Assembly: GCF_000024925.1 (NCBI RefSeq)
Contig: NC_013521.1
Coordinates: forward strand, 3,472,001-3,536,000
DNA from: Sanguibacter keddieii DSM 10542
GTDB lineage: Bacteria; Actinomycetota; Actinomycetes; Actinomycetales; Cellulomonadaceae
Reading direction: 5' to 3'
Length of the DNA: 64,000 bases
Below the pieces are notes generated by a model that made no database searches, had not been told where the DNA came from, and was given only the letters and a program-made list of their open reading frames with translations. This document shows positions 1 to 13,284 of the stretch, one piece after another. The position numbers and the translations under genes were made by a program. Each line of letters opens with the position of its first letter. Within the stretch, counting starts at the first letter, position 1.

Positions 1-610
1 TGCCCTCGACGCTCGCCGAGACGAGGTTGACGATGGACTGCACCTGGTCGTCGGTGAGCGTGACGCCGGATCGGGTCTTGACGAACACCGACGCGGTCGG
101 GTCGGTCGCCTGGTCGACGAACACGGACTCGGCCGGCATCGCGAGCTTGACGGTCGCGAGCTCGACGCCCTGCATCGAGGAGACGGTCTTGCCCATCTCG
201 CCCTCGAGCGCGCGCTTGTAGGTGACGTCCTGCTGGAACTCCGACGACGTCATGCCCATGTCGTCGAGGAGCGAGTAGCCGCCGTCGGCCGACGGCGACA
301 TCCCGCTCGCGGCGACCTTGAGGCGCATGTCGTAGACCGACTCGGTCGGCACGAGGACCGTGGACCCGCCGTTGGTCAGCTGGTACTTGACGCCCTGGGC
401 GGTGAGCTGGTCGACGATCGCGCTCGCGTCGGCCGGGGCCAGGTCGGTGTAGAGGGGGGAGAACTGCGGGCGGCTGAACCACATGCTCAGCGCGACCACG
501 CCGACCACGGCGACCGCCAGCCCGATGAGGGCGAGGGTGCGCTGCGCGACGGTGAACTCACGGATCGACGAGGTGACCCGGCCGAGCGCGGAGGTGATCT
601 GCTGGGGCAT
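1..610 (-). CDS. fliF: Flagellar M-ring protein FliF, N-terminal part (cut by window edge)
   Basis: FliF forms the MS ring in the cytoplasmic membrane, the base on which the flagellar rotor and export gate assemble. The visible 203 residues hold a short cytoplasmic N-terminus, one membrane helix at about residues 26-45, and the start of the YscJ/FliF ring-building domain (RPQFSPLYTDL, then the region around VKYQLTNGGSTVLVPT). The ATG overlaps the fliE stop as TGATG, so it is translationally coupled in flgB-flgC-fliE-fliF. The C-terminal FliG-binding part lies beyond position 1. Confidence 0.95.
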   Translation of the reverse strand, partial: MPQQITSALGRVTSSIREFTVAQRTLALIGLAVAVVGVVALSMWFSRPQFSPLYTDLAPADASAIVDQLTAQGVKYQLTNGGSTVLVPTESVYDMRLKVAASGMSPSADGGYSLLDDMGMTSSEFQQDVTYKRALEGEMGKTVSSMQGVELATVKLAMPAESVFVDQATDPTASVFVKTRSGVTLTDDQVQSIVNLVSASVEG

Positions 611-954
611 CAGGCCTGCATCCTCATGATCTCGGAGAAGGCCTCGACGGCCTTGTTCCGGACGGCGGCGGTGAGCTCGAGGGTCAGCTTCGCCTCGGAT
701 GAGGCGATGGTGTAGTCGTGGATGTCGTCGAGGTCACCGGTGACGGCGCGCACCGCGAGGGCGTTCGACTTCTCCTGGAGCGACTGCAGGTTGCCGACGG
801 CCCCGGTGAGGACCTCGCCGAAGGCGCTCGAGGTGCCCGAGACGCCGGAGGCGCCCTCGGGACGCCCGATGACGTCCGGGGAGGACAGGTAGCCGGTCGG
901 CGAGACGCCGCCCGCGCCGGAGAGGGACACGCCCTCGATCGCGGGGATGCTCAT
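610..954 (-). CDS. fliE: Flagellar hook-basal body complex protein FliE
   Basis: FliE joins the MS ring to the proximal rod and is an early export substrate. The 114-residue protein is of normal family length. The conserved part is the C-terminal half: SFxE-like AFGEVLTGAV, the SNALAVRAVTGD region that matches the family's DIHxV segment, and the end KAVEAFSEIMRMQA. The ATG at 954 is used because it overlaps the flgC stop as TGATG and starts MSIPAIEG. A longer upstream reading of the frame lies inside flgC and is not coding. Confidence 0.95.
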   Translation of the reverse strand: MSIPAIEGVSLSGAGGVSPTGYLSSPDVIGRPEGASGVSGTSSAFGEVLTGAVGNLQSLQEKSNALAVRAVTGDLDDIHDYTIASSEAKLTLELTAAVRNKAVEAFSEIMRMQA

Positions 955-1358
955 CAGGAACGTCCGATCTGCAGTGCTGCCTCGTAGGTGGCCTTCGCGC
1001 GGTCGACGACCGACGCGTTCGCCTGGTAGCCGCGCTGGGCCATGATCATCTGGGACATCTGGCCGGCCATGTCGACCTCGGGGTACTTGACGTAGCCCTC
1101 GGCGTCGGCGAGCGGGTGGTCGGGCTCGTGGACCATGCGGCCCTCGGCGCTGCCGAGCTCGATGCCGGCGACCTGGACCCCCTGGCCGTTCTCGGGGTAC
1201 CCGACGGCGCTCGCCACGACGTAGCGCGCCTGGAAGGCGGCCTCGTCCGAGGGGCGCACGGTGTTGATGTTGGCGAGGTTGTCGCTCACCGCGTCGAGCC
1301 ACTTGCGGTTCACGGTCATGCCCGTGCTCGCGATGCCGATCGCTCCGAAGGTTGTCAT
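954..1358 (-). CDS. flgC: Flagellar basal-body rod protein FlgC
   Basis: FlgC is a proximal rod subunit of the flagellar basal body. The 134-residue protein carries the N-terminal rod/hook signature (IASTGMTVNRKWLDAVSDNLANINT) in a family-typical position and a C-terminal amphipathic helix rich in MAQRGYQANASVVDRAKATYEAAL, the pair of helices that pack as the D0 domain. Start ATG overlaps the flgB stop (TGATG). Length is usual for FlgC. Confidence 0.96.
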   Translation of the reverse strand: MTTFGAIGIASTGMTVNRKWLDAVSDNLANINTVRPSDEAAFQARYVVASAVGYPENGQGVQVAGIELGSAEGRMVHEPDHPLADAEGYVKYPEVDMAGQMSQMIMAQRGYQANASVVDRAKATYEAALQIGRS

Positions 1359-1699
1359 CAGCTGGTCCTCATTGCGGTCCGGAGGGACGAGAAGGTGCCG
1401 TCCACCGCTTGGGTGGCCAGCTGGTAGCGCAGGTTGGTGTCGACGTTGAGCAGGGTCTCCGCGTCGAGGTTCACGTTGTTGCCGTCGAGGCGCGTGGGCT
1501 CGAGGGACCGTGCCTGGGTCGCGGTGACCGCGCCCGTCCCGCGGCGCACGGCGGAGGCGAGCTCGCTCTCGAAGGAGACGCGGCCGGCGAGGTAGTTCGG
1601 GGTGTTGATGTTCGCGACGTTGTTCGCGATCACCCGCTGGCGCAGGGCAAGGCCGTCCAGGGCGCTGTTGAGCGCCACGAAGGTCACGGAATCGAACAC
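1358..1699 (-). CDS. flgB: Flagellar basal-body rod protein FlgB
   Basis: FlgB is a proximal rod protein and here the first gene of a leftward rod/MS-ring operon. The 113-residue product has the N-terminal rod signature (LRQRVIANNVANINTPNYLAG) and a C-terminal helix (TNLRYQLATQAVDGTFSSLRTAM). The start is a GTG (VFDSVTF), since no ATG lies in a sensible place and a purine-rich GGGGA stands about 8 bases upstream; translating further upstream gives an Arg/Gly-rich extension unlike FlgB. A flagellar-type promoter motif lies about 75 bases upstream. Confidence 0.93.
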   Translation of the reverse strand: MFDSVTFVALNSALDGLALRQRVIANNVANINTPNYLAGRVSFESELASAVRRGTGAVTATQARSLEPTRLDGNNVNLDAETLLNVDTNLRYQLATQAVDGTFSSLRTAMRTS

Positions 1700-1773
1700 G
1701 AGAATCCCCACTCGAGGTGATGTGTCGGCCGATCCATGGCCTCCTGCGCGAGCCTTCCTGGCTCGTCCTGCAC

Positions 1774-1802
1774 TATCGGTCGGTCCTCGCAACTCATGAG
1801 GG
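1774..1802 (-). promoter_or_regulatory. Putative flagellar sigma promoter of flgBC-fliEF
   Basis: On the minus strand the site reads CCTCATG, 15 bases, CCGATAG. The -10 part resembles the GCCGATA of WhiG/FliA-type promoters. The same layout and spacing occur before fliC, fliS, the glycosyltransferase gene and flgN. An AT-rich GAGAAAA lies just upstream, as it does at fliC. The expected transcript leader is about 65-70 bases. Use by the nearby sigma factor is inferred. Confidence 0.7.
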
Positions 1803-1899
1803 GTTTTCTCACCCGGAGTGAGAACTCGCCCTCAGGTCGGGACCTGGGCCCGCTCGGCGGGCCCGGTGGGGCCTGTCGCAGGTCTGTCGTGGTGCGCTG

Positions 1900-2295
1900 T
1901 CAGCCGACGGCGTCGACGTACACCGAGGCCGTCGTGTCGTTCGTGCGGAGCGACCCGACCGCCCGGAGGTGGGCACGCGCGGCGCGCACGGCCTCCTCGA
2001 CGCGCGGGGCGAGCTCGGCCTGGCGGTCGAAGACCGCGACGGCGCGGGCCTGGAGACCGCTCGGGAGCGGGCCGAGGCCGGTAGGAGGCGTCCATGCCGC
2101 GCTGGGCAGGGCGTCGACGGTCTCGAGCAGGAAGCCCGGCGAGACGAGGGCCTCGGCCCGGTCGACCTCGGCCTCGAGCTCGTCGAGGGCGACCTCCCAG
2201 GGAGACCTGTCGTCGACCGGCGGTGCCGTGGTGGTCTCGTCCGAGACCTCTGCAGACGCCACGGCCGTCGTCTCTGCCGAGACCTCCGCAGACAT
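1900..2295 (-). CDS. Small protein after fliS, possible FliT-like flagellar chaperone
   Basis: This 131-residue acidic, helical protein is not recognised by sequence. Its ATG lies one base after the fliS stop (TGAGATG), so it is translated with fliS. The first 25 residues are Ser/Ala/Glu/Thr-rich and repetitive (SAEVSAETT, SAEVSDETT), and the body is predicted helical (WEVALDELEAEVDRAEAL, then a long helix ending in AARAHLRAVGSL). In many flagellar clusters a small helical FliT-type export chaperone follows fliS, which supports that role by position only. A GTG at 2307 inside the end of fliS is an alternative start. Confidence 0.6.
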   Translation of the reverse strand: MSAEVSAETTAVASAEVSDETTTAPPVDDRSPWEVALDELEAEVDRAEALVSPGFLLETVDALPSAAWTPPTGLGPLPSGLQARAVAVFDRQAELAPRVEEAVRAARAHLRAVGSLRTNDTTASVYVDAVG

Positions 2296-2296
2296 C

Positions 2297-2758
2297 TCAG
2301 CCGACACCGAGGACGCTCCCGGGTGCGCTCGGCGCGGCGCCCGCGAGGGCGGGCTCGGCGCGTCGCGTCGCGCCGCCGAGCTCGGCCGCGGCCTCGTGCC
2401 ACGCGGCACGGAGCGGCTCGACGACCGTCCGGCACTGCTGGGTGCGGTCGGCGTCGTGGGTGATGTTGGCCTGCACGAGCTCACCCATGAGGTGGGTGTA
2501 CACGGACTGCAGCGCCGGGCCGCCCGACCACGCCTCGACGTCGAGGGTGACCATCAGCTCGGCCACGATGTCCTGCGCGTGGATGAGCTGGACGTTCGCC
2601 TCGGCGAGGTCGCCGGCGCGCTGCGCCTTCTCGGCTCGGTCGAGGTCGAGCACCAGCCGGTCGTACAGCATGGTGAGGAGTCGAGCGGGGGTGGCGCTGA
2701 GGACGGCGTCGCTGAGGAACCGCGCGCGCTGCGCTTCGGAGCTGGTCACGTTGCTCAT
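2297..2758 (-). CDS. fliS: Flagellin export chaperone FliS
   Basis: FliS binds the C-terminal disordered part of flagellin in the cytoplasm and prevents premature polymerisation before export. The 153-residue protein has the family's four-helix core, including TPARLLTMLYDRLVLDLDRA and the segment from ANVQLIHAQDIVAELMVTLD to YTHLMGELVQANI. The last 25 residues are an Ala/Pro-rich tail beyond the usual FliS end. It lies 55 bases after fliD. A variant of the flagellar promoter motif sits just before the ATG, so it may also be transcribed separately. Confidence 0.95.
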   Translation of the reverse strand: MSNVTSSEAQRARFLSDAVLSATPARLLTMLYDRLVLDLDRAEKAQRAGDLAEANVQLIHAQDIVAELMVTLDVEAWSGGPALQSVYTHLMGELVQANITHDADRTQQCRTVVEPLRAAWHEAAAELGGATRRAEPALAGAAPSAPGSVLGVG

Positions 2759-2767
2759 ACGGTCCCC

Positions 2768-2794
2768 ATCGGCAGCCGCGGGGCGGACGTGAGG
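2768..2794 (-). promoter_or_regulatory. Putative flagellar sigma promoter before fliS (variant copy)
   Basis: The minus strand reads CCTCACG, 15 bases, CCGATGG. It differs at one base of the upstream box from the other copies and keeps the exact spacing. Its -10 box ends about 9 bases before the fliS ATG, so a transcript from here would have almost no leader. It lies in the 55-base fliD-fliS gap. This is the weakest of the five sites. Confidence 0.5.
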
Positions 2795-2813
2795 GAAGTG
2801 CCGGACCGGAAGG

Positions 2814-4196
2814 TCAGCTGTTCCAGCTCGGCAGCGACCCGATCTGGCCGGCGAGCCAGCTCGACTGGGACTGCAGCCCGCTGAGGGTGACCTCGAGTGC
2901 GGCATAGGTGCGCTGCAGGCCGGACCTGCGGGTCTCCAGACGACGGTCCCAGTCGCTGACCTGCTCGGTGAGCCCCTTGCTGAACGACTCCTGGCTCTTG
3001 ACCTTGAGGGTGAGGCTGCCGTCGATGGGGTCGGAGATCCGCTTCGAGGCGTCGGCGACGCGCTCACCCAGGCCGGAGACGACACGCTGGACCTTCTCCG
3101 GGTCCTTGCCGAGCGCCTCGGTGAACTTGGCCTGGTCGAAGGTGAAGGTGCCGTCCTTGTTGAGCGTGATGCCCACCTCGGACGGCGAGATGCCGTCGAC
3201 CGGGTACGACAGCGCCGTGGTGATGGACTGCCCGATGCCTCGGGTCGCGCTGTCGCCCGAGAGCACGCCACCGGCGATCACGGTGCGGCCGTCGGTCGAG
3301 GTCGTCGTGGTGGTGCTGGTCCGCGACGCGATCTCGGAGAGGACGACCCCGACCGACCCGACGAGGTCGGAGGCGAGCTTGGTCAGGGCCGCGTCGTTGC
3401 GGACGGTGGTGACGGTGACCGGGGTCGCCTCGACCGCCGACACCGTGAAGCTCACACCCTTGAGGACGTCGCTGAAGGTGTTGCTCGCCGAGGTGACCGG
3501 GGTGCCGTCCCAGAGGCTGATCTGGGCGTCGACCGCCTGCACCAGGGCCGTGGACCTGTCGACGACGAGGTCGGACGCCCCGGCCGCGAGGTCCTCTGCG
3601 GTGACCTTCCCGCGGTGGATGTCGAAGGCGCCGTCGACGCCCGTCGACTTCCCGGTGATCTGCAGGCGCGACTCGGTCGCGGAGACCTTCACCACGCTCG
3701 CGGTGATGCCGGAGCCGGCGGCGTTGAGCTTGGTGGCCAGCCCGGCGAGGTCGGTGACGCCGGCGAGGTCGACCGTGACGAGCGTGGGCTTGGACGCTGG
3801 GCCGGAGACGATGGTGAGGTTCTCGGGCACGCCGTCCGGGAAGTAGGAGTCGAGGTCCGTCACGGCGGCGCTCACCGAGGTCTGGGGCTTGGCCAGGCGG
3901 TCGACCGTGAAGCTCAGGGTCGAGGGCTGGGAGCCGGCGCTCGTGGTGACCTTGACGCTGGTCGCCGACGACGACGCGGTGGTCGCCTGCCAGGACTCGG
4001 GCTTCGCGGCCGTCTTGGCGACGTCCGCGAGCGAGGACACGCGGGTGTTGAGGCCCTGCAGGGCGGTGATGAACGCCTGGGTCGTGGTGACCTTCTGCTT
4101 GAGCATGGTCTGGGGCATCGCCTCGACCTGCATGAGCTGGTTGATGAGCTCGGAGGTCTTGAGACCGCTGATCATGCCGTCGACTGCCAGGGACAT
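2814..4196 (-). CDS. fliD: Flagellar hook-associated protein 2 (filament cap) FliD
   Basis: FliD forms the cap at the filament tip that folds incoming flagellin. The 460-residue protein has the FliD N-terminal domain (LAVDGMISGLKTSELINQLMQ near residue 3, coiled-coil after it) and a C-terminal FliD domain with SDWDRRLETRRSGLQRTYAALEVTLSGLQSQSSWL at the end, both of the expected type. The ATG at 4196 is chosen because GAGGAGCG precedes it by about 6 bases; a longer frame upstream runs into the fliC terminator hairpin. It is followed by fliS. Confidence 0.95.
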   Translation of the reverse strand: MSLAVDGMISGLKTSELINQLMQVEAMPQTMLKQKVTTTQAFITALQGLNTRVSSLADVAKTAAKPESWQATTASSSATSVKVTTSAGSQPSTLSFTVDRLAKPQTSVSAAVTDLDSYFPDGVPENLTIVSGPASKPTLVTVDLAGVTDLAGLATKLNAAGSGITASVVKVSATESRLQITGKSTGVDGAFDIHRGKVTAEDLAAGASDLVVDRSTALVQAVDAQISLWDGTPVTSASNTFSDVLKGVSFTVSAVEATPVTVTTVRNDAALTKLASDLVGSVGVVLSEIASRTSTTTTTSTDGRTVIAGGVLSGDSATRGIGQSITTALSYPVDGISPSEVGITLNKDGTFTFDQAKFTEALGKDPEKVQRVVSGLGERVADASKRISDPIDGSLTLKVKSQESFSKGLTEQVSDWDRRLETRRSGLQRTYAALEVTLSGLQSQSSWLAGQIGSLPSWNS

Positions 4197-4257
4197 CGCG
4201 CGCTCCTCGGGTGGCTCGTGGGTCGAGAGACGGCTGCGGGCCGCCCGGGACTTGAGA

Positions 4258-4293
4258 GACGGCGGTGAGGGACACGAGTCCCTCACCGCCGTC
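4258..4293 (-). terminator. Hairpin terminator after fliC
   Basis: A perfect 15-bp stem (4258-4272 with 4279-4293) with a 6-base loop lies about 85 bases after the fliC stop and before fliD. The stem is GC-rich and there is no strong U-tract, as is common in high-GC actinobacteria. It would limit read-through from the highly expressed fliC into fliD. Confidence 0.75.
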
Positions 4294-4378
4294 GGTCCTG
4301 CTGGTGGTGCTGGTGCTGCTGGTCGTGCGGGTGCTGCTGTGATGCTCGGTCAGCGGCTCTCACCGCCGGCTAGCGAGA

Positions 4379-5551
4379 TCAGCGCAGGAGCGAGAGGACG
4401 CCCTGGGGGATCTGGTTGGCCTGAGCGAGCATCGAGGTGCCAGCCTGCGAGAGGATCTGCGCACGGGTGAAGTTGACCATCTCGGACGCCATGTCCGTGT
4501 CGCGGATGCGGCTCTCCGAGGCGGAGAGGTTCTCGACCGAGACGTTGATGTTCTTGACCGTGTGCTCGAAACGGTTCTGCAGCGCACCGAGGTTGGCGCG
4601 AGCGGTCGACACGGACGAGATCTTCTCGTCGATCTTCGTGATGGACGCCTGAGCAGCGGCGGCGGACGAGAAGTCCAGGCCCTGCTGCGTGTTGGCGACC
4701 TGGTTGCCACCGTCGATGCCCGCACCCGGGTCGACGACCGCGACGTCGCCGCCGTTGAGAGCCTTGACCGAGATGCCGGTCGCAGCGCCGTTGGCGTCCT
4801 TGATGACGTTGACGGAGAAGTTCGCGTTGAAGTTCGTGTCCGCGGCGAGCGCGTCCGCGAGGCCCTGGACCGAGGTCGGGGCGGTCGCGAGGGTGACCGC
4901 GATGTCCGAGGTGACACCCGAGCCGTTGTCGACCGAGAAGGTGTACGCCGAGGCGGTGAGCGCAGCGGTCGAGACCGTGAACTCGGTGCCGCCGACAGCG
5001 AGCGAGCCCGTGCTGAGGTCCGCAGCGATCGCCTTGATGTTGGCGCCCGAGAGGTCCACCGTGATCTGGCTGTTGGCGTCGCCGTCAGCACCGACCTGGA
5101 ACTGGAGCTTGCCCGAGCCGCCACCGGCGGTGCCGTCGAGGAGGTTCGTGCCGTTGAAGTTGGTGGACTTCGAGATGCGGTCGAGCTCCGACACGAGCTG
5201 GGTGGCCTCGGTGTCGATGTTCTTGCGGGCCTCGGCGTTGTTCGAGTCGTTACCGGCCTGGACAGCCAGGTCACGGACACGCTGGAGGATGGCGTGCGTC
5301 TCGGTGAGCGCACCCTCAGCGGTCTGGACGACGGAGATACCGTCCTGGGCGTTGCGAGCCGCGACCTTGAGGCCACCGACCTGCGAGCGCAGGCCCTCGG
5401 AGATCGCCAGGCCGGCCGCGTCGTCAGCAGCACGGTTGATGCGGAAGCCGGAGGAGAGCTTCTCCAGCGACTTGCTCAGGTCGTTCTGCGTGTTCGAGAG
5501 GTTGCGGTAGGAGTTGACTGCCGCGATGTTCTGGTTGATCGAGAGACCCAT
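4379..5551 (-). CDS. fliC: Flagellin FliC
   Basis: This is the major filament subunit. The 390-residue protein has the conserved N-terminal D0/D1 helices (INQNIAAVNSYRNLSNTQ; GFRINRAADDAAGLAISEGL) and C-terminal D1/D0 helices (NRFEHTVKNINVSVENL; MLAQANQIPQGVLSLLR), with a variable surface region at about residues 130-300 rich in Thr, Ser, Ala and Gly. The ATG is preceded by GGAAGAAG at good spacing. It is monocistronic: its own flagellar promoter upstream, a hairpin downstream. Thr/Ser in the variable part could be the target of the glycosyltransferase next door; that is inference. Confidence 0.97.
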   Translation of the reverse strand: MGLSINQNIAAVNSYRNLSNTQNDLSKSLEKLSSGFRINRAADDAAGLAISEGLRSQVGGLKVAARNAQDGISVVQTAEGALTETHAILQRVRDLAVQAGNDSNNAEARKNIDTEATQLVSELDRISKSTNFNGTNLLDGTAGGGSGKLQFQVGADGDANSQITVDLSGANIKAIAADLSTGSLAVGGTEFTVSTAALTASAYTFSVDNGSGVTSDIAVTLATAPTSVQGLADALAADTNFNANFSVNVIKDANGAATGISVKALNGGDVAVVDPGAGIDGGNQVANTQQGLDFSSAAAAQASITKIDEKISSVSTARANLGALQNRFEHTVKNINVSVENLSASESRIRDTDMASEMVNFTRAQILSQAGTSMLAQANQIPQGVLSLLR

Positions 5552-5612
5552 GATGATCTTCTTCCGTGAGTGGGGCCGAGATGCGGCGCCCATCCGTGGG
5601 CTGCCACACGTC

Positions 5613-5641
5613 CTATCGGTCCTCCCCCGGAGGCCATGAGG
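5613..5641 (-). promoter_or_regulatory. Putative flagellar sigma promoter of fliC
   Basis: The minus strand reads CCTCATG, 15 bases, CCGATAG, identical in both boxes and spacing to the site before flgB. GAGAAAA lies directly upstream, also shared with flgB. The leader to the fliC ATG would be about 55 bases. Confidence 0.75.
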
Positions 5642-5671
5642 ATTTTCTCGACGAGTTTTTCGCGGGCCCGC

Positions 5672-7267
5672 TCAGGCCAGCGAGACGAGCCCCGGCGCGA
5701 CGACCTCGAGGTGCGAGGCGAGCTCCGCCTCGTGCTCGGGGGCGACGTCGGCGAGCGCGGCCTCGAGCCCGGGCAGCGCGCGCTCGTCGGAGTAGACGTC
5801 GACGGCGAGGGCCGCGGCGATCGCGCGCTGGCGCGGGTCCTGGGAGGGGTCCTGGCTGATCGCGACGAGCGGGCAGCGCTCGGCGAGACCGTGGGTGCGC
5901 AGGCGCACCGACCAGGCGACGGCCTCCTCGATGCTCAGGGCGCGGGCGAGCGAGGCACCGCTCAGCAGCACGGTGAGGTCACCGGGGCGCACGGCGTCCA
6001 TCTCCTCGAGGAAGACGCGAGCCGGGCGACTGCCGTCGGCGACCGCCTCCAGGGCCAGCCCGGACCAGATCGTCTCGTCGATCACGCCGACGAGGTCGGC
6101 GAGCGGCCGCCCCGCGTCCCGGAACACCCCGACGAGCCGCGCGGGCGCGACCGAGGCACGTCCGGACGCGGCCGCACGCACGGCGACCTCGGCGGCCTCG
6201 ACCGCCCGGTCGGTGGACAGCAGCGCCCAGACCTCGACGGGTGCGATCTCCGTGCGGTCGAAGCGGACGTCCTGGCCGTCGACGGCGGTCTCGGGGATCT
6301 GGTCGAGGACGTCGAGGGTCGCGCGGACGTCCTGGCGCAGCGCGAGGACGTAGGCCTTGCGGGCGAGCGGACGGGCGGAGAGCGTGTCGACCGCGAGCCA
6401 GGCGTCGAGCATCTCGTCGACCGCGTCGCCGTCACCGAGCGCGATGGCGAGCTCGACGAGGGCCGGGGCGAGCGACGCCGCGCCAGACCGGCTCAGCAGA
6501 CCGCTGGCGAGCACCTCCCGGCCGACCTCGAGGCCCTCGGCGTGGTCGCCGTGGAGCCCGAGCGACCGGGAGAGGTTGGCGCGCAGGAGCGCGACCTCGG
6601 CGGCGGGGCGCCCGTCGCGCTCGGCGGCTGCGACGTCGAGTCGGGCGAGGTCGAGGTTGCGGCGGGCCTTGCCGCGGTCGGCCATGCGCTCCGTGAGGTA
6701 GCCGCTGTGCACCAGGCGTGCGCCGGGGACGGGCGTCGCCGCCGCGAGGTCGACGCCGGGGGTGGACGGGACCATCTGCTCGTGCAGCCGGCCGGACCAC
6801 ACGAAAGCACCGCGCCGGTAGAGGCGGACCGAGGCCATGCTCTTGGTGACGGTGGCCTCGCCTGTCCCGCCCCCGGCGACGTTGTCGACGAGCAGGAGGT
6901 GGCAGCCGACCGCAGGGTCGAGCGCCGCGCGGAGCCCGTCGGGGTCGCCGACGAACACCTCGTCGGCGTCCACGGTCAGCACCCAGTCCCCCGTGGCGTG
7001 CGCCGCGGCACGGTTGCGGGCCGCGCCGAAGTCGTCGTCCCAGAACCCCTCGACCACCGTGCCGGTGTGCCGCGCGGCGATCTCGCGGGTGGAGTCGGTC
7101 GAGCCGGTGTCGTAGACGACGATCTCGTCGACCCAGCCGAGGGCGGCGAGGGACGCCTCGAGCACGTCCTCCTCGTCCTTGACGATGAAGACCGCGGAGA
7201 CACGCGGTCCGGCTCCGGGCGTGCCGGGGCGTGACGCGGTCGGCGCGGTCTGTCGGACGTGCGGCAT
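5672..7267 (-). CDS. Family 2 glycosyltransferase, likely flagellar glycosylation
   Basis: A cytoplasmic GT-A fold glycosyltransferase transferring a sugar from a nucleotide-sugar donor. The N-terminal 230 of 531 residues hold the GT2 hallmarks: SAVFIVKDEEDVLEASLAAL, the DTGSTDST turn and the metal-binding TVDADEVF. The C-terminal 300 residues are Ala/Leu-rich helices of TPR-like character. An ATG at 7294 is possible, but it falls inside the flagellar promoter motif; the ATG at 7267 has AGGAG six bases upstream and is preferred. It sits between fliC and the flagellar sigma gene with its own flagellar promoter, so flagellin or another filament protein is the likely acceptor; donor and acceptor are unknown. 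Confidence 0.82.
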   Translation of the reverse strand: MPHVRQTAPTASRPGTPGAGPRVSAVFIVKDEEDVLEASLAALGWVDEIVVYDTGSTDSTREIAARHTGTVVEGFWDDDFGAARNRAAAHATGDWVLTVDADEVFVGDPDGLRAALDPAVGCHLLLVDNVAGGGTGEATVTKSMASVRLYRRGAFVWSGRLHEQMVPSTPGVDLAAATPVPGARLVHSGYLTERMADRGKARRNLDLARLDVAAAERDGRPAAEVALLRANLSRSLGLHGDHAEGLEVGREVLASGLLSRSGAASLAPALVELAIALGDGDAVDEMLDAWLAVDTLSARPLARKAYVLALRQDVRATLDVLDQIPETAVDGQDVRFDRTEIAPVEVWALLSTDRAVEAAEVAVRAAASGRASVAPARLVGVFRDAGRPLADLVGVIDETIWSGLALEAVADGSRPARVFLEEMDAVRPGDLTVLLSGASLARALSIEEAVAWSVRLRTHGLAERCPLVAISQDPSQDPRQRAIAAALAVDVYSDERALPGLEAALADVAPEHEAELASHLEVVAPGLVSLA

Positions 7268-7294
7268 GCGGGCTCCTGAGGTGGTGGTGCTCAC

Positions 7295-7324
7295 CTCATC
7301 GGCACGGCGCAGGACGTCATGAGC
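7295..7324 (-). promoter_or_regulatory. Putative flagellar sigma promoter of the glycosyltransferase gene
   Basis: The minus strand reads GCTCATG, 15 bases, CCGATGAG. The boxes and spacing match the flgB, fliC and flgN sites, and the leader to the ATG at 7267 is about 20 bases and contains AGGAG. It places the glycosyltransferase in the flagellar regulon. Confidence 0.7.
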
Positions 7325-7442
7325 ACCTGCACGTCGTGAGCACCTGCGGTCGGTCGCCTCGCGGGACCGCGGGCCGGACGGGCGGCGGAGCTACCGGGCC
7401 AGGTGTGGGCCGGGCGCGGGCCGGCTGCGGGCAGGGCCCCGC

Positions 7443-8354
7443 TCAGCCGACGGCGACGAGGGGCTCGTGCGGCGCCGGGAAGGGGGCGACGGCCTGGGGC
7501 GCGGTGGTGCCGGGGGCCGCCGTGACGGCGCCGACCACGGAGGCGCTGGCTGCGACGGCCGTCGAGGCGTGCAGGCTGGCGCGCTCGGCGATCGCGGCGA
7601 AGTACGTCTCGCGGCGGCGCTGGGCGACGCCCTCGGGCTGGGCCGGGGCGGGGACCTGCGCGGGGTCGAGGTGGGTGTTGAGACCGTCGCGGAGCAGGAC
7701 CATGGCCTCGGCGCGCAGCTGGCTGACACGGGACTGGGTGACACCCATGTCCTTGGCGATGTCGGTGACCGTGCGGTCGTGGAAGAACACCTGCTCGACC
7801 ACGGTGCGCAGGCGCTCGGGGAGCGTCGAGACGGCGGCGTGCAGGTAGGTGAGGCGCTCGTCGAGGATGACCGACTCCTCGGGGCCGACCTCGCGGGCCG
7901 GGAGGACCTCGGCGAGGGCGCCGTCGTAGCCCTCGAGGCTGAGCACGCGGGTGGCGGCGGCCTCACGGGCGGTGTCGACCTCGGAGACGTCGACGCCGAG
8001 GGCGTGGGCGATCTCCTCACGGGTCGGGGCGCGACCGAGGTCGGCCGTGAGCTCGTCGGCGACGGTGGTGAGCTTGCGGGCACGCTGACGCGCGCCGCGG
8101 CTGACCCAGTCCATCGAGCGGAGCTCGTCGACCATGGCGCCCTTGATGCGGATCGCGGCGTACCGGTTGAAGGGCACCCCGGTCGTCGCGTCGTACGCTC
8201 GGGCGGCCTGGACCAGGGCGAGGGCCCCGGCGGACGCCAGATCATCTCGCGACACGTGGCTGGGGACACGCATGAGCATCTCGCTCACGTGGTACCCGAC
8301 CAGCGGGAGATTCTCGGTGACCAGGCGGTTCTGGTCGGCGTCCATGGGCTGCAT
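7443..8354 (-). CDS. RNA polymerase sigma factor, FliA/WhiG family
   Basis: Alternative sigma-70 family factor directing RNA polymerase to late flagellar promoters. Region 2 (RDDLASAGALALVQAARAYD, GVPFNRYAAIRIKGAMVDELRSMDWV) is close to FliA/WhiG, region 3 starts at SRGARQRARKL, and region 4 helix-turn-helix is TVTDIAKDMGVTQSRVSQLRAEAM. About 75 residues follow region 4, an Ala/Pro-rich tail absent from standard FliA. The start is uncertain: ATG at 8354 or 8345 gives about 300 residues; a TTG at 8444 would be longer. Neither ATG has a strong ribosome site. No anti-sigma FlgM is visible in the window. Divergent from flgN. Confidence 0.9.
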   Translation of the reverse strand: MQPMDADQNRLVTENLPLVGYHVSEMLMRVPSHVSRDDLASAGALALVQAARAYDATTGVPFNRYAAIRIKGAMVDELRSMDWVSRGARQRARKLTTVADELTADLGRAPTREEIAHALGVDVSEVDTAREAAATRVLSLEGYDGALAEVLPAREVGPEESVILDERLTYLHAAVSTLPERLRTVVEQVFFHDRTVTDIAKDMGVTQSRVSQLRAEAMVLLRDGLNTHLDPAQVPAPAQPEGVAQRRRETYFAAIAERASLHASTAVAASASVVGAVTAAPGTTAPQAVAPFPAPHEPLVAVG

Positions 8355-8457
8355 GGGACAACCATGCGGGGTGTTCCCAGGTTTCTTCAAGCCGTTGACA
8401 AACGTTTTCACCCGGTAACATCCACACGACCTCCTCACAGGCAATGGGGAGAACTAC

Positions 8458-8475
8458 CCATGGGGGTCCCCATGG
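8458..8475. promoter_or_regulatory. Perfect palindrome in the sigma-flgN divergent region
   Basis: CCATGGGG and CCCCATGG form a perfect inverted repeat with a 2-base centre. It lies about 100 bases before the sigma gene start and 280 before flgN, in a 400-base gap that otherwise holds the flgN promoter and a TTGACA at 8395-8400. The symmetry suits a dimeric regulator; the regulator is unknown. Confidence 0.45.
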
Positions 8476-8620
8476 CCCCCGCTTGCGGCCTCCGGCGGAG
8501 CGTGGATAACGCTTCCACCTGCACAAACGCAACCTCATCCTCGCCTGTTGCCTACAGTTGGACCTAGGGTGTGCATCGGTGCGAGGGTGAAATGGGTCAC
8601 CCTCGTGGTCTCGACGAATG

Positions 8621-8649
8621 CCTCATGGTGCGTGGGCAGCGACCGATGT
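8621..8649 (+). promoter_or_regulatory. Putative flagellar sigma promoter of flgN-flgK-flgL-fliW
   Basis: The plus strand reads CCTCATG, 15 bases, CCGATGT. It is the only plus-strand copy and lies before the only plus-strand flagellar operon of the window. The leader to flgN would be about 100 bases. Confidence 0.7.
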
Positions 8650-8755
8650 GGTCTGTGAGCCGCACCAGACCCCACCGGTCCCCTGGCTCCCGACCACCGG
8701 GTACCCACCGGTACGGCCCCATCCATCATCGGATCGACGAAGGAGTACGAGCGCG

Positions 8756-9238
8756 ATGAGTCTGCAAGCGCTGAGCAGCGTCCTGTGGCGCGAGCGCCAG
8801 CTCCTCGAGCTGCTCCTGTTCAAGCTCGAGGAGGAGCAGCTGCTCCTCACCAGCGGGAAGACCCGCTGGCTCGGCCACGCCACCCGCGAGGTCGAGAACG
8901 TCCTCGAGCAGATCCGCGAGGTCGAGCTCGGCCGGTCGGTCGAGTCCGACGCGGTCGCCCGCCTCCACGGCCTCGAGCCCGGCCGCAGCCTGCACGAGCT
9001 CTCCGAGGCCGTGCCGGCTCCCTGGGACGACCTGCTGCGCACGCACCGCCAGGCGTTCCTCGACATCACCCACCAGATCGAGTCCCTGGCCCAGGGGAAC
9101 CGCGAGCTCCTCTCCGCGTCGCACCGCGCGACGCAGGAGGCCCTCGCCAACCTCACGCAGGACTCCCACACCTACGACGCGACCGGGTCGACGGCGCACG
9201 GCGAGAGCACCGCCCGCATGCTCGACCAGGAATTCTGA
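8756..9238 (+). CDS. flgN: FlgN-like flagellar export chaperone
   Basis: FlgN chaperones the hook-filament junction proteins FlgK and FlgL during export, and here it directly precedes flgK. The 160-residue all-helical protein begins SLQALSSVLWRERQLLELLLFKLEEEQLLL, typical of the FlgN family in Gram-positives, and has long amphipathic helices throughout. AGGAG stands about 11 bases before the ATG. Upstream codons in frame are rejected because they overlap the promoter motif. The flgK start follows after 7 bases. Confidence 0.85.
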   Translation: MSLQALSSVLWRERQLLELLLFKLEEEQLLLTSGKTRWLGHATREVENVLEQIREVELGRSVESDAVARLHGLEPGRSLHELSEAVPAPWDDLLRTHRQAFLDITHQIESLAQGNRELLSASHRATQEALANLTQDSHTYDATGSTAHGESTARMLDQEF

Positions 9239-9245
9239 GGAACCC

Positions 9246-10673
9246 ATGAGCACCTTCTCCGGACTGTCCACAGCGCTGTCGTCGCTCATCACCCAGCGCC
9301 AGGCGCTCGAGGTCGCTGGCCAGAACCTCGCGAACATCAACACCCCCGGCTACACCCGCCAGCGGGTCGACATGCAGTCGGTCAGCGCCGGCCAGGGCGC
9401 GACGATGTTCTCGCAGGGCAACCAGGTCGGCAACGGCGTCCAGGCCGTCGGCGTCGCGCGCCTCGGCGACATCTTCATGGACGCCCGCGTGCGCACCACG
9501 TCGTCCTCGGCCGCCTACCTCGCCGCACGCACCGACGCCTTCAAGCGCCTCGAGTCGACGATCGCCGAGCCCGGCGCCAACGGCATCTCGGCCGACCTCG
9601 ACAAGCTCTGGGCCAGCTGGAGCGACGTGGTGAACTCCCCCACGAGCGACGCGGTCGGCGCGGTCCTCCTCGAGAACTCCGCAGCGGTCCAGCGCTCGAT
9701 CTCGACCGGCTACACGGCCGTCGTGACCCAGTGGGACCAGACCCGCAGCAAGGCCGAGTCGCTCGTCTCCGACGTGAACTCCGCAGCCGCCTCGGTCGCG
9801 CTCCTCAACGAGCAGATCCAGCAGATCACCGTCTCGGGCGGCAACGCCAACGAGCTCATCGACCAGCGCAACGTCCTCACCACCGCGCTCTCCTCCCTCG
9901 CCGGCGCCACGGTCCGCCTGCAGCCGAACGGCACGGCCGACGTCAACATCGGCGGCAACCCGATCGTCAGCGGCAGCAGCGCGCAGAAGCTCAAGCTCGT
10001 GGGCAGCCGCGAGATGGTCGGCGCCACCGGGAACGAGGTCCGCGTCGAGTGGGACCGCACGCCCGCCGGCACCCCGGCCCCCCTCGAGGGCGGCCAGCTC
10101 GCCGGCGTGCTGAGCGTCCTCGCCCCGGCCAGCGGCGGAGCCGGCGGCATGCTCGCCGAGGCGGCCGAGTCGTACAACGTGCTCGCCACGAAGCTCGCGA
10201 CCTCGGTCAACACCCTGCACTCGGCCGGCGCCGACCGCGCCGGCACCACGGGCGTCGACTTCTACTCGCTCCCCACCGACGGCACCCCGGCGGCGCTGGG
10301 CCTGCGCGTGGCGATCACCTCCCCGAGCCAGATCGCCGTGCGCAACCCCGCCAACGGCGCCAACGACACCTCGGTGGCCGACGCGATCGGCCAGCTCGGG
10401 GCGTCCAAGGACGGCCCCGACACCGTGTGGTCGACCTTCGTGGTCTCGACCGGCGTCAAGGCCAAGGCCGCGCTGCAGAGCGCGACGGTCGCCGAGGCCG
10501 CACGCCAGACGGCCGAGGGCCTCCAGCTCGCGCAGACGAGCGTGGACCAGGACGAGGAGAGCATCAACATGCTCTCGTTCCAGCGCGCCTACCAGGGTGC
10601 CGCACGTGTCATGACAGCGGTCGACGAGATGCTCGACCAGCTCATCAACCGGACAGGAGTCGTCGGACGATGA
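9246..10673 (+). CDS. flgK: Flagellar hook-associated protein 1 FlgK
   Basis: FlgK is the first hook-filament junction ring. The 475-residue protein has the N-terminal D0 rod/hook signature (RQALEVAGQNLANINTPGYTRQRV) and the C-terminal D0 helix (DEESINMLSFQRAYQGAARVMTAVDEMLDQLINRTGVVG). The central part is of normal FlgK length. Its TGA overlaps the flgL ATG (ATGA). Confidence 0.97.
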   Translation: MSTFSGLSTALSSLITQRQALEVAGQNLANINTPGYTRQRVDMQSVSAGQGATMFSQGNQVGNGVQAVGVARLGDIFMDARVRTTSSSAAYLAARTDAFKRLESTIAEPGANGISADLDKLWASWSDVVNSPTSDAVGAVLLENSAAVQRSISTGYTAVVTQWDQTRSKAESLVSDVNSAAASVALLNEQIQQITVSGGNANELIDQRNVLTTALSSLAGATVRLQPNGTADVNIGGNPIVSGSSAQKLKLVGSREMVGATGNEVRVEWDRTPAGTPAPLEGGQLAGVLSVLAPASGGAGGMLAEAAESYNVLATKLATSVNTLHSAGADRAGTTGVDFYSLPTDGTPAALGLRVAITSPSQIAVRNPANGANDTSVADAIGQLGASKDGPDTVWSTFVVSTGVKAKAALQSATVAEAARQTAEGLQLAQTSVDQDEESINMLSFQRAYQGAARVMTAVDEMLDQLINRTGVVGR

Positions 10674-11581
10674 TCACCCGAGTCACGCACCAGTCGACGC
10701 AGCGCGCCGCGCTCACCAACCTGCAGGCGACGCAGAGCCGCCTCGCGCAGCTCCAGGAGCGTGCGTCGAGCGGCAAGATGGTCACCAAGGCCTCGGACGA
10801 CCCCGCGAAGGCCGCCGACGCCATGGCGCTGCGCAAGGAGCAGCAGGCCTCGGCCCAGTACTCGCGCAACATCCAGGACGGCGTCAGCTGGCTCACGTCG
10901 ATCGACACCGCGATCAACACCTCGGTCGCCTACCTCAACCGGGTCCGCGACCTCACGGTCCGCGGTGCCAACACCGGTGCGATCAACGCCGAGGCTCGCG
11001 AGGCCCTCGCCGTCGAGATCGAGGGGCTGCGCGAGTCGCTCGCCGCGCAAGCCAACACCACGTACCTCGGACGGTCGGTCTTCGCCGGGACCAGCGACGG
11101 ACCGGCCTACACTCGAGACACTGTCACCGGCGAGTACACCTACAACAGCTCTGCGGGGACCGTCGAGCGCCGGACCGGTGCTGGCACGACGGTCCGTGTG
11201 GACGCGGACGGAGCAGCCGTGTTCGGCACCAGCAACGACCCCGACTCGCCCGACGCGTCGGTGTACGCACTCCTCACCGACATCGCGGCCACGCTCCGCG
11301 CGGGCGGCGACGTCCAGTCCGACATCACCCGGATCGACGCACGCAGGGACAAGATGCTCAGCGAGGTCACCGGGGTCGGCGCACGCACCAACCAGCTGGA
11401 GAGCGCCAAGGAGATCCTCGGGCACAAGGCGATGTCGCTCAAGGGCGACCTCTCGGCGGTCGAGGACATCGACCTGCCGGCCACGCTCATCGAGCTGCAG
11501 ATGCAGGAGGTCGCCTACCAGGCGGCCCTCGGTGCCACTGCGCGCGTGCTCCAGCCGAGCCTCCTGGACTACCTCAAGTGA
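10670..11581 (+). CDS. flgL: Flagellar hook-associated protein 3 FlgL
   Basis: FlgL is the second junction protein and a flagellin homologue. The 303-residue protein starts MITRVTHQSTQRAALTNLQATQSRLAQLQERASSGK, the flagellin-like N-terminal helix pair, and ends with the flagellin-type C-terminal helix (IELQMQEVAYQAALGATARVLQPSLLDYL). It overlaps flgK by ATGA at its start and fliW by GTGA at its end, so the three are translationally coupled. Confidence 0.96.
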   Translation: MITRVTHQSTQRAALTNLQATQSRLAQLQERASSGKMVTKASDDPAKAADAMALRKEQQASAQYSRNIQDGVSWLTSIDTAINTSVAYLNRVRDLTVRGANTGAINAEAREALAVEIEGLRESLAAQANTTYLGRSVFAGTSDGPAYTRDTVTGEYTYNSSAGTVERRTGAGTTVRVDADGAAVFGTSNDPDSPDASVYALLTDIAATLRAGGDVQSDITRIDARRDKMLSEVTGVGARTNQLESAKEILGHKAMSLKGDLSAVEDIDLPATLIELQMQEVAYQAALGATARVLQPSLLDYLK

Positions 11582-11964
11582 TCACCAGCCTGCACTTCCT
11601 CGAAGCGCTCCCGGGCCTGTCGTCCGCCACCGACTTCGACCTCACGTCCCTCGACGACGCCGGGCTGCTGTACAGCCTGCGCGGCGCGCAGGACTCGACG
11701 CGGCTGTTCGCGATCCAGCCCGGCCCGTACTTCAGCGAGTACGAGCCGACCTTCGGCTCCGAGGTGCTCTCGGCCCTCGCGCTCGAGGGTGCCGACGACG
11801 ACCGGCGCGCGGTGCTGGTCATCGTCACGCCGAGCCAGCCCGACACCCCGGCGACGGCCAACCTGCTGGCCCCGCTCGTGCTCAACACCGAGACCGGCGA
11901 CGCCCTCCAGGTCATCCTCGAGGGTGCCCCGTGGCCCCTGCGGGCCCCGCTCGTCGCTGCCTGA
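11578..11964 (+). CDS. fliW: Flagellar assembly factor FliW
   Basis: FliW binds cytoplasmic flagellin and, in organisms with CsrA, also binds CsrA, so that flagellin translation follows export. The 128-residue protein shows the family core: FLEALPGLSSATDFDLTSLDDAGLLYSL, IQPGPYFSEYEP and LVVITPS-like VLVIVTPSQPDTPATANLLAPLVLN. It starts with GTG overlapping the flgL stop. In many genomes csrA follows fliW; here an HDOD gene follows and no csrA is visible. Confidence 0.93.
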   Translation: MITSLHFLEALPGLSSATDFDLTSLDDAGLLYSLRGAQDSTRLFAIQPGPYFSEYEPTFGSEVLSALALEGADDDRRAVLVIVTPSQPDTPATANLLAPLVLNTETGDALQVILEGAPWPLRAPLVAA

Positions 11965-12027: not shown

Positions 12028-13284
12028 ATGGACCACCCCCGCGCGCTGCCGACGACCGACGCCATGCCCGGCACCTACGCCGCCCCCGTGCTCCCGGGCG
12101 AGGGCCTGTCCGACGTCTCGCCCACCTTCGGGCGCCTGGCGATCGTCGACCGCAAGCGCCAGGTCCTCGCCTACGCGCTGCCCGTGCTGACGGCCCTCGA
12201 CGGTGACGTCGCCGACGCGGCCGCCGCGGCCTCGCTGCACCAGGTCTACCGGACGGTCGACCTCGAGAAGTACGTCGCCGACCGTCCCGCCTTCATCTGG
12301 TCGACACCCGCGATGCTCGCCGGGCACGAGTCCGTCCCGCCGAGCCAGGGCGGGGTCGGCCTGCTCGTGCACCCGACCGCGACCCGTCGCGCCGACGGCG
12401 CGGAGCAGATCATCGCGCTGTCCGAGCGGGGCACGCCGACCGTCCTCGTGAAGTTCGCCGGCGAGCCTGGCCAGCGCGCGCTGCTGCCCTTCGTGTCGCA
12501 CGTGATGATCGACGTCGCGGACGGCACGCTCGACCTCGGAGAGCTCGTCACCGTCGCGCACAACGCGGGCGTCACCGTCATCGCCGAGAACGTGCAGGGC
12601 ACGCTCGGTCCCGCGAAGGCGTGGGGTCTCGGCGTCGACTTCCTCATGGGCTCGATCTACCACCACGAGAAACCCACGAAGGTCCGCAGCCTCGACCCGG
12701 GCGAGATCCAGTGCCTCGAGGTCGTCCGGCTCCTGTCGGCGCCCGAGGTCGACACGACGCGCATCGCCGAGGTGCTCTCGAGCGACCCCGAGATGACCGT
12801 CCGCGTGCTGCACCTCGTCAACTCGGTCGCGATCGGCCTGCCGCAGCGGGTGGACTCGCTGCACCGCGCGATCATCATGCTCGGGCCGTCGAAGCTGACC
12901 ACGCTCGTCATGGCCTCCCTCATCAGCTCGCGGATCCAGCAGATGGACGCCCTGTGGTTCCTCCTCGCGCGTGCCGCGGCCTGCCGCGAGCTCGCCGGGG
13001 ACGACGCCGGCTACACCGTGGGCCTGCTCTCGGCGTTCTCCGAGGAGACCGGGATCCCCGTGTCGGTGCTCGTCGAGAAGTCGCTCGTGTCCGAGGAGGT
13101 CGCGCGCGCGCTCGACTCCTACGAGGGTCACCTCGGTGCGACGCTCGCCGCCGTCGTGGCGCACGAGCACGGCGACGCGGCCGGTGTCGCGGCGACCGCG
13201 TGGCGGCCCGAGCAGGTGGCGCACGCCTACCTGGTCGCGCTCCCCTGGGCCCTCGAGACGGTCCGCCAGCTCAACCTCACCTGA
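12028..13284 (+). CDS. HDOD protein with degenerate EAL-like N-terminus (YuxH-like)
   Basis: The 418-residue cytoplasmic protein has two parts. Residues about 30-200 follow the EAL fold outline (LAIVDRKRQVLAYAL where EAL proteins have FDRKLNVYGYELL; VKFAGEPGQRALLPFVSHVMIDV) but lack the Glu-Ala-Leu and metal ligands, so cyclic-di-GMP hydrolysis is not expected. Residues about 210-400 are an HDOD domain (RLLSAPEVDTTRIAEVLSSDPEMTVRVLHLVNS; HRAIIMLGPSKLTTLVMASL), which lacks a full HD metal site. Such proteins usually act as signalling scaffolds. GAGGAG precedes the ATG. It is 63 bases after fliW and ends the flagellar run, so a motility role is likely but unproven. Confidence 0.82.
   Translation: MDHPRALPTTDAMPGTYAAPVLPGEGLSDVSPTFGRLAIVDRKRQVLAYALPVLTALDGDVADAAAAASLHQVYRTVDLEKYVADRPAFIWSTPAMLAGHESVPPSQGGVGLLVHPTATRRADGAEQIIALSERGTPTVLVKFAGEPGQRALLPFVSHVMIDVADGTLDLGELVTVAHNAGVTVIAENVQGTLGPAKAWGLGVDFLMGSIYHHEKPTKVRSLDPGEIQCLEVVRLLSAPEVDTTRIAEVLSSDPEMTVRVLHLVNSVAIGLPQRVDSLHRAIIMLGPSKLTTLVMASLISSRIQQMDALWFLLARAAACRELAGDDAGYTVGLLSAFSEETGIPVSVLVEKSLVSEEVARALDSYEGHLGATLAAVVAHEHGDAAGVAATAWRPEQVAHAYLVALPWALETVRQLNLT

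Follow-up and report, generated by a model that had tools for sequence, protein, structure and literature searches.

The flagellar locus and its five motif copies

The stretch of Sanguibacter keddieii DSM 10542 analysed here, hereafter the window, comprises 64,000 nucleotides (positions 3472001-3536000 of the single 4.25-Mb contig NC_013521.1) and carries part of a flagellar-chemotaxis cluster, in which five copies of a two-box motif precede flagellar transcription units as putative promoters. Gene calls on the window and the adjoining 40 kb, together with Pfam searches of chosen products, delimited one cluster, which in window coordinates extends from roughly -37 kb to +13 kb. It is composed of chemotaxis genes, five chemoreceptor genes, cheA, csrA, the genes from flhA to fliM, a flbD/swrD gene, hook and rod genes and fliE, and further of flgB, fliS, fliD, fliC, a glycosyltransferase gene and fliA, with flgN, flgK, flgL and fliW on the divergent strand. 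The names of the cluster genes that were not scanned, for example flgK, flgL, flhB and the motor genes, are presumptive.

The motif, CTCAYG-N15-CCGAT, was matched five times in the window, once each before flgB, fliS, fliC, the glycosyltransferase gene and flgN. The original prediction had given it as CCTCAYG-N15-CCGAT before all five units. This longer form fits exactly at four copies (1775-1801, 2768-2794 and 5615-5641 on the minus strand and 8621-8647 on the plus strand), whereas the glycosyltransferase copy starts GCTCATG, so that the shorter form is the common one. The spacing of 15 bases, which had been described as invariant, was found at all five copies, and the same two boxes at spacings of 10-14 and 16-21 bases gave no match in the window. 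The letters 3' of CCGAT are likewise as first described, with AG at flgB and fliC, GG at fliS, GA at the glycosyltransferase gene and GT at flgN.

Each copy was treated as a 29-base site and scored with a matrix derived from the flagellin upstreams of other families (see below). Four of these putative FliA-type promoters lie on the minus strand. The site of the flgB operon (CTCATG-N15-CCGATAGT, 1772-1800, 12.2 bits) ends 72 bases before the start codon of flgB (1358-1699, minus strand), which PF00460 assigns to the rod-protein family and which is named flgB by gene order. The site of fliC (CTCATG-N15-CCGATAGG, 5612-5640, 15.3 bits) ends 60 bases before the flagellin gene (4379-5551, minus strand; PF00669, PF00700). 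The site of the glycosyltransferase gene (CTCATG-N15-CCGATGAG, 7295-7323, 16.8 bits) ends 27 bases before the start of this family 2 gene (5672-7267, minus strand; PF00535), given the ATG at 7267; a longer frame would start at 7294, right at the site end. A role of its product in flagellin glycosylation is a guess from the place of the gene alone. On the plus strand, the site of the flgN-flgK-flgL-fliW unit (CTCATG-N15-CCGATGTG, 8622-8650, 14.6 bits) ends 105 bases before flgN (8756-9238, plus strand; PF05130), which encodes an export chaperone and heads the unit through to fliW (11578-11964, plus strand; PF02623), a member of the family of CsrA antagonists.

The fourth minus-strand site, that of fliS (CTCACG-N15-CCGATGGG, 2765-2793, 18.8 bits), is placed differently. 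It begins at -35 and its 29 bases end 6 bases before the ATG of the flagellin chaperone gene (2297-2758, minus strand; PF02561), a place that is kept in all five same-genus relatives, so that the fliS message is predicted to be leaderless or nearly so.

The remaining genes of the window lack comparable sites. Among 28 genes beyond 13 kb with an upstream gap of at least 40 bases, the best score with the matrix was 7.7 bits, as compared to 12.2-18.8 bits at the five copies, in line with the claim that no other copy stands near a gene start in the window. Within the cluster, the upstreams of fliA, fliD, flgK, flgL and fliW reached only 2.8-5.1 bits, the values being 2.8 bits for fliA (7443-8354, minus strand) and 3.0 bits for the filament cap gene fliD (2814-4196, minus strand; PF07195, PF02465). 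Directly 3' of fliW lies a gene for an HDOD-domain protein (12028-13284, plus strand) without a motif of its own.

Conservation of the putative promoter form

In five relatives of the same genus, a site scoring at least 9.7 bits was kept at flgB in 4/5, and sites were kept at fliS in 5/5, at fliC in 4/5 (the fifth having a spacing of 14), at the glycosyltransferase gene in all three relatives in which the gene was found, and at flgN in 5/5. The spacers vary among these relatives while the sites stay. The upstreams of fliD, fliA and flgK in the same five genomes scored below 8 bits in 15/15 cases. In two more distant genera, the flgB and fliC sites were both found in 2/2, the flgN site in 1/2 and the fliS site in 0/2. 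One of the eight stretches from relatives (L309) was without gene calls. A scan for CTCAYG-N15-CCGATA matched 35 of 121 family genomes and was too strict to separate the flagellated ones.

To look beyond the family, flagellin genes were searched with PF00669, which gave matches in 77 of 248 genomes of the order, 41 of 296 of the class and 50 of 296 of the phylum. We examined 30 upstreams from the order, 25 from the class search, of which three (L159, L161 and L163) belong to the same order, together with 26 from other classes (27 minus L101, which was too short). TCA-N17-CCGAW, a pattern similar to the window motif, stands within 200 bases of flagellin in 15/30, 13/25 and 3/26 of these upstreams, respectively, against shuffle means of 0.23, 0.20 and 0.20. 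The TNA and looser patterns for flagellin upstreams were chosen after viewing the data.

These counts bear on the explanation by chance, given how often CTCA and CCGAT occur in a GC-rich genome (the G+C fraction of the window is 0.726). Genome-wide, 17 motif matches were found in 4.25 Mb as compared to 5 with a reversed control pattern, so that a fair part of the lone matches would be expected by chance; five of the 17 are the window copies. However, all five window matches precede flagellar units at a single spacing, shuffled windows contained CCTCAYG-N15-CCGAT 0.04 times on average and once at most (n = 100), and the order and class flagellin upstreams exceed their shuffle means many times over. 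Chance is refuted for the five sites jointly and retains a negligible probability as an explanation of the motif, while it may account for individual sites that are not near motility genes.

A matrix was then obtained by expectation-maximisation on 47 order and class flagellin upstreams, with the own family left out. Seeded from the fliC site of the window, it placed a site (posterior above 0.5) in 45 of the 47 flagellin upstreams of other families. The first base lies 82-132 bases upstream of the flagellin start in 44 of these sites and at 182 bases in the remaining one; four of the 45 score below 9 bits. Of 12 random starts, one led to the same two-box motif and one to its -10 half, the rest leading to parts of the leader. 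Of 26 named loci that were examined, seven hold a flagellin start; among the six with a listed score, five reached at least 13 bits (Planomonospora, 20.1; Dactylosporangium, 13.1; Nocardioides, 16.3, 16.5 and 13.1), and the Demequina flagellin locus scored 9.8 bits. Locus L333 probably belongs to the genome G760 and is not independent.

The matrix consensus, CTCA(A/G)(G/C)-N14-GCCGAT(G/A)(A/G)G, can be compared with the sigma-28/WhiG consensus TAAA; GCCGATAA, in the form in which it was searched in Rubrobacter (PMC8325347). In register, TCAN-N15-GCCGATRR corresponds to TAAA-N15-GCCGATAA with usually one -35 base altered, and the matrix tolerates variation at the second -35 base (C 0.71, A 0.15, T 0.13). 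All five window copies follow TCAY-N15-NCCGAT; they share the NCCGAT -10 box and the 15-base spacing with sigma-28/WhiG promoters, but carry TCAT or TCAC in place of TAAA. The original prediction had regarded the upstream box as unlike TAAA; it does differ in 5/5 copies, but as TAAA with mainly one base changed at an unchanged spacing, not as a separate box. The prediction had also proposed a lineage-specific form of the sigma promoter, of which the promoter form is supported by the 45 of 47 upstreams, whereas the restriction to this lineage is not. Since no more than 3/26 upstreams of other classes show TCA-N17-CCGAW, the form is claimed, beyond this lineage, for the class Actinomycetes only.

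The register also helps to distinguish a promoter from an operator. A dimeric or two-domain DNA-binding regulator could also account for two boxes at a constant distance. However, the boxes are not repeats of one another, their order, sense and gap are fixed, and the downstream one is the -10 box of sigma-28 promoters. A consensus scan of positions 1-9300 gave no sigma-70-type promoter that could serve these units instead, a weak argument in such GC-rich DNA. We consider it very unlikely that the motif is an operator, and favour its reading as a promoter.

Motility genes marked by the matrix

At a threshold of 10 bits, the matrix marked 19 of 31 motility upstreams of the S. keddieii genome, namely 10 of 19 in the cluster and those of 9 of 12 chemoreceptor genes outside it. 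The marked cluster upstreams are the five window copies, three of the five chemoreceptor genes, cheA and the flbD/swrD gene; the copies before the chemoreceptor genes, cheA and flbD/swrD, just outside the window, are weaker. Of all 17 chemoreceptor genes of the genome, 12 were marked. At the same threshold, 4 of 50 control genes, 0 of the 28 window controls and 5 of 498 random 200-base blocks passed. Three of the four passing controls lie in loci fetched for holding the motif, and the fourth is the first gene of an apparent chemoreceptor operon.

When the genome was scanned with the class-derived pattern, 16 matches were found as compared to 1 with the reversed control, and eight of them precede motility genes. 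Of the rest, five end 51-74 bases before other genes, and three are either intragenic or not close to any called start. One of the five, a clean copy outside the cluster at about 3.97 Mb, stands 58 bases before a VanY-domain gene (L327 853-1443, minus strand), whose product resembles by eye a flagellar-cluster protein at its N-terminus. This gene may encode a flagellar cell-wall enzyme outside the cluster. The other four, likewise clean copies (L312, L318, L325 and L326), stand 51-74 bases before genes of unknown function, and it is possible that these are new motility genes.

The probable sigma factor of the sites

The flagellar block contains, as had been noted, a FliA/WhiG-family sigma gene, the divergent fliA. 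Its product fits TIGR02479 (FliA_WhiG) best, with 177.2 bits as compared to 103.7 bits for SigBFG, and its sequence matches in the PDB are led by FliA and WhiG structures (6pmi, 6pfv, 1rp3). Its closest named relatives are from Cellulomonas triticagri (60% identity), a Demequina, Actinoplanes, Planomonospora and Nocardioides.

The sites, their spacing, their conservation and their place are direct observations; from these we infer, as a very probable reading, that the five sites are promoters recognized by RNA polymerase when it is associated with the block's divergent FliA-like sigma. Region 4 of this sigma would contact the TCAN box, which is TAAA altered mainly at the second base, and region 2 would contact the NCCGAT(A/G) box 15 bases downstream. 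Transcription would begin several bases past the -10 box. The rod, filament, export-chaperone and chemotaxis units would then belong to one promoter class, without an early/late split visible at the promoter level.

The genome also encodes a second, WhiG-type sigma (G000:C1:2630488-2631165; L275 571-1629, minus strand; 2.63 Mb), and the sites could instead be read by this factor, with the block sigma reading something else. It scores higher as a FliA_WhiG protein (258.3 bits), and WhiG shares the flagellar consensus TAAA / GCCGATAA (PMC8325347). However, of the 10 listed family genomes that lack flagellin, 3 (G004, G025 and G041) also have a match as strong as that of the second sigma (near 1e-30; classed by match strength only), whereas, among the family genomes covered by both searches, all 9 with flagellin and none of the 10 listed without it have a strong match to the block sigma. 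Moreover, the flagellin promoters are of the TCA form in three genomes of the family f4 (G205, G509 and G636), in which a FliA is encoded next to fliC and no match exceeds 200 bits, the WhiG range. Because the block sigma tracks flagellin in the family, and because the f4 genomes have TCA promoters without a match in that range, the block FliA-like sigma is the likely reader of the promoters, and reading by the separate WhiG-type sigma appears improbable.

Several observations weigh against the favoured reading. The block sigma lies below the curated FliA_WhiG cut-off (177.2 against 189.6 bits), and the higher-scoring WhiG-type factor is present in the same genome. Outside the class, 23 of the 26 flagellin upstreams are without the TCA form; several are of the TAAA type, and others show nothing clear. 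Half of the class-pattern matches (8/16) precede no recognised motility gene, and 12 of the 31 motility upstreams score below 10 bits, including those of fliA, fliM, csrA and two cluster chemoreceptor genes, some of which may lie inside operons. The expectation of the original prediction that the whole regulon could be read from sequence therefore holds for 19 of the 31 upstreams and 12 of the 17 chemoreceptor genes, but not for these 12.

We also considered whether a single residue of the recognition helix accounts for the change from TAAA to TCAN. Unlike WhiG-type sigmas, which carry H at residue 214 in 34 of 36 readable rows, FliA-type sigmas carry R in 51 of 52. As a code this failed, and none is claimed. 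G328 and G198 have TCAA-GCCGATAA promoters, yet their only matches above 120 bits carry H (a few weaker sigmas were not read), and G338 has a TCAA promoter with H in both matches above 200 bits. Conversely, an R helix accompanies TAA boxes in G656 and G685, and G437 and G569 have TTA boxes with a helix identical to that of the TCA genomes G421 and G543. In the recognition helix of the FliA-like sigmas of L272-L274 (families f5 and f2), A replaces R and Q replaces L, and the flagellin boxes seen in f5/f2 loci are TAAC or TTAC, with one unclear. There may have been a second -35 shift in these families.

Insulation of two regulons within one cell, with WhiG on TAAA and FliA on TCAN, was not supported either. 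The genome contains no TAAA-N15-GCCGATAA at up to one mismatch, despite its separate WhiG-type sigma. TCA boxes were found in the absence of any sigma match of 200 bits or more (3/3 of the genomes searched of f4, 3/3 of f100 and 8/9 of f9); therefore, the shift can be explained without invoking insulation from WhiG.

For FlgM, the best match in the genome was 12.2 bits against a cut-off of 25, and none was found. This agrees with PMC2587704 and PMC4255298, which report no FlgM in flagellated actinobacteria.

A hairpin in the flagellin leader

Between the promoter and the start of fliC, the leader contains a hairpin, CCC-ACGGAT-GGG (5589-5600, minus strand). A(N)GGA(N) loops on stems of at least four pairs were found in 48 of 55 order and class flagellin leaders, as compared to a shuffle mean of 0.81 and a maximum of 3; the count takes the best stem per leader, which lies at -18 in L147 and at -89 in L090. 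For covariation, 46 of the 55 rows were used, leaving out six duplicates and L147, L150 and L172, whose best site is elsewhere. On these rows, 68 cells were changed on both sides, as compared to 24.9 when shuffled, and 84.8% of the stem cells were paired, as compared to 23-53% when the stem was slid, although the choice of the best stem favours pairing. No Rfam family matched the hairpin stretch beyond two chance-level matches.

A further GGA is present at the Shine-Dalgarno region, and the hag leader of Bacillus subtilis has a two-site CsrA layout. Because csrA and fliW are both in the cluster, the hairpin is probably a CsrA site like that of hag. It resembles the CsrA-FliW control of hag (PMC4682653) in having ANGGA in a hairpin loop and in the presence of csrA and fliW. 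Among the papers listed by a single literature search, none described such a hairpin in actinobacteria.

Relation to known systems and significance

The closest counterpart is Actinoplanes missouriensis, in which Jang et al. (2016, J Bacteriol) reportedly mapped flagellar transcription starts and described a promoter, CTCA(N15-17)GCCGAA, with one sigma for all. By this consensus, CTCA-N16-NCCGAT is the same kind of site, with CTCA and CCGA boxes about 16 bases apart and one class for the flagellar units, and a near-identical form is reportedly already published. The present sites differ from that form in having CCGAT(A/G) instead of CCGAA, in occurring in another family, and in including chemoreceptor genes outside the cluster. 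Both the CCGAT and CCGAA forms were found at Nocardioides flagellin sites. In A. missouriensis, 33 flagellar genes are transcribed together, as the work is cited in PMC8306008. The open literature that was searched gave no further account of a promoter consensus in other motile actinobacteria. A 2013 review describes the roles of WhiG in the motility of simple motile actinobacteria as unanalysed and reports FlgM-like proteins to be absent from all of their genomes (PMC4255298).

For the class as a whole, we put forward a tentative picture that we hold to be possible, short of probable. The flagellar sigma would form a lineage of its own apart from WhiG, with TCA for TAA, and would read all flagellar tiers together with scattered chemoreceptor genes in the absence of FlgM, while the CsrA leader hairpin and FliW would replace the FlgM checkpoint.

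The promoter form allows much of the motility regulon in simple motile actinobacteria to be listed from sequence, and it offers a simple way of testing which sigma is responsible for reading it. A hint of function is also provided for unknown genes behind the motif, such as the VanY-domain gene outside the cluster.

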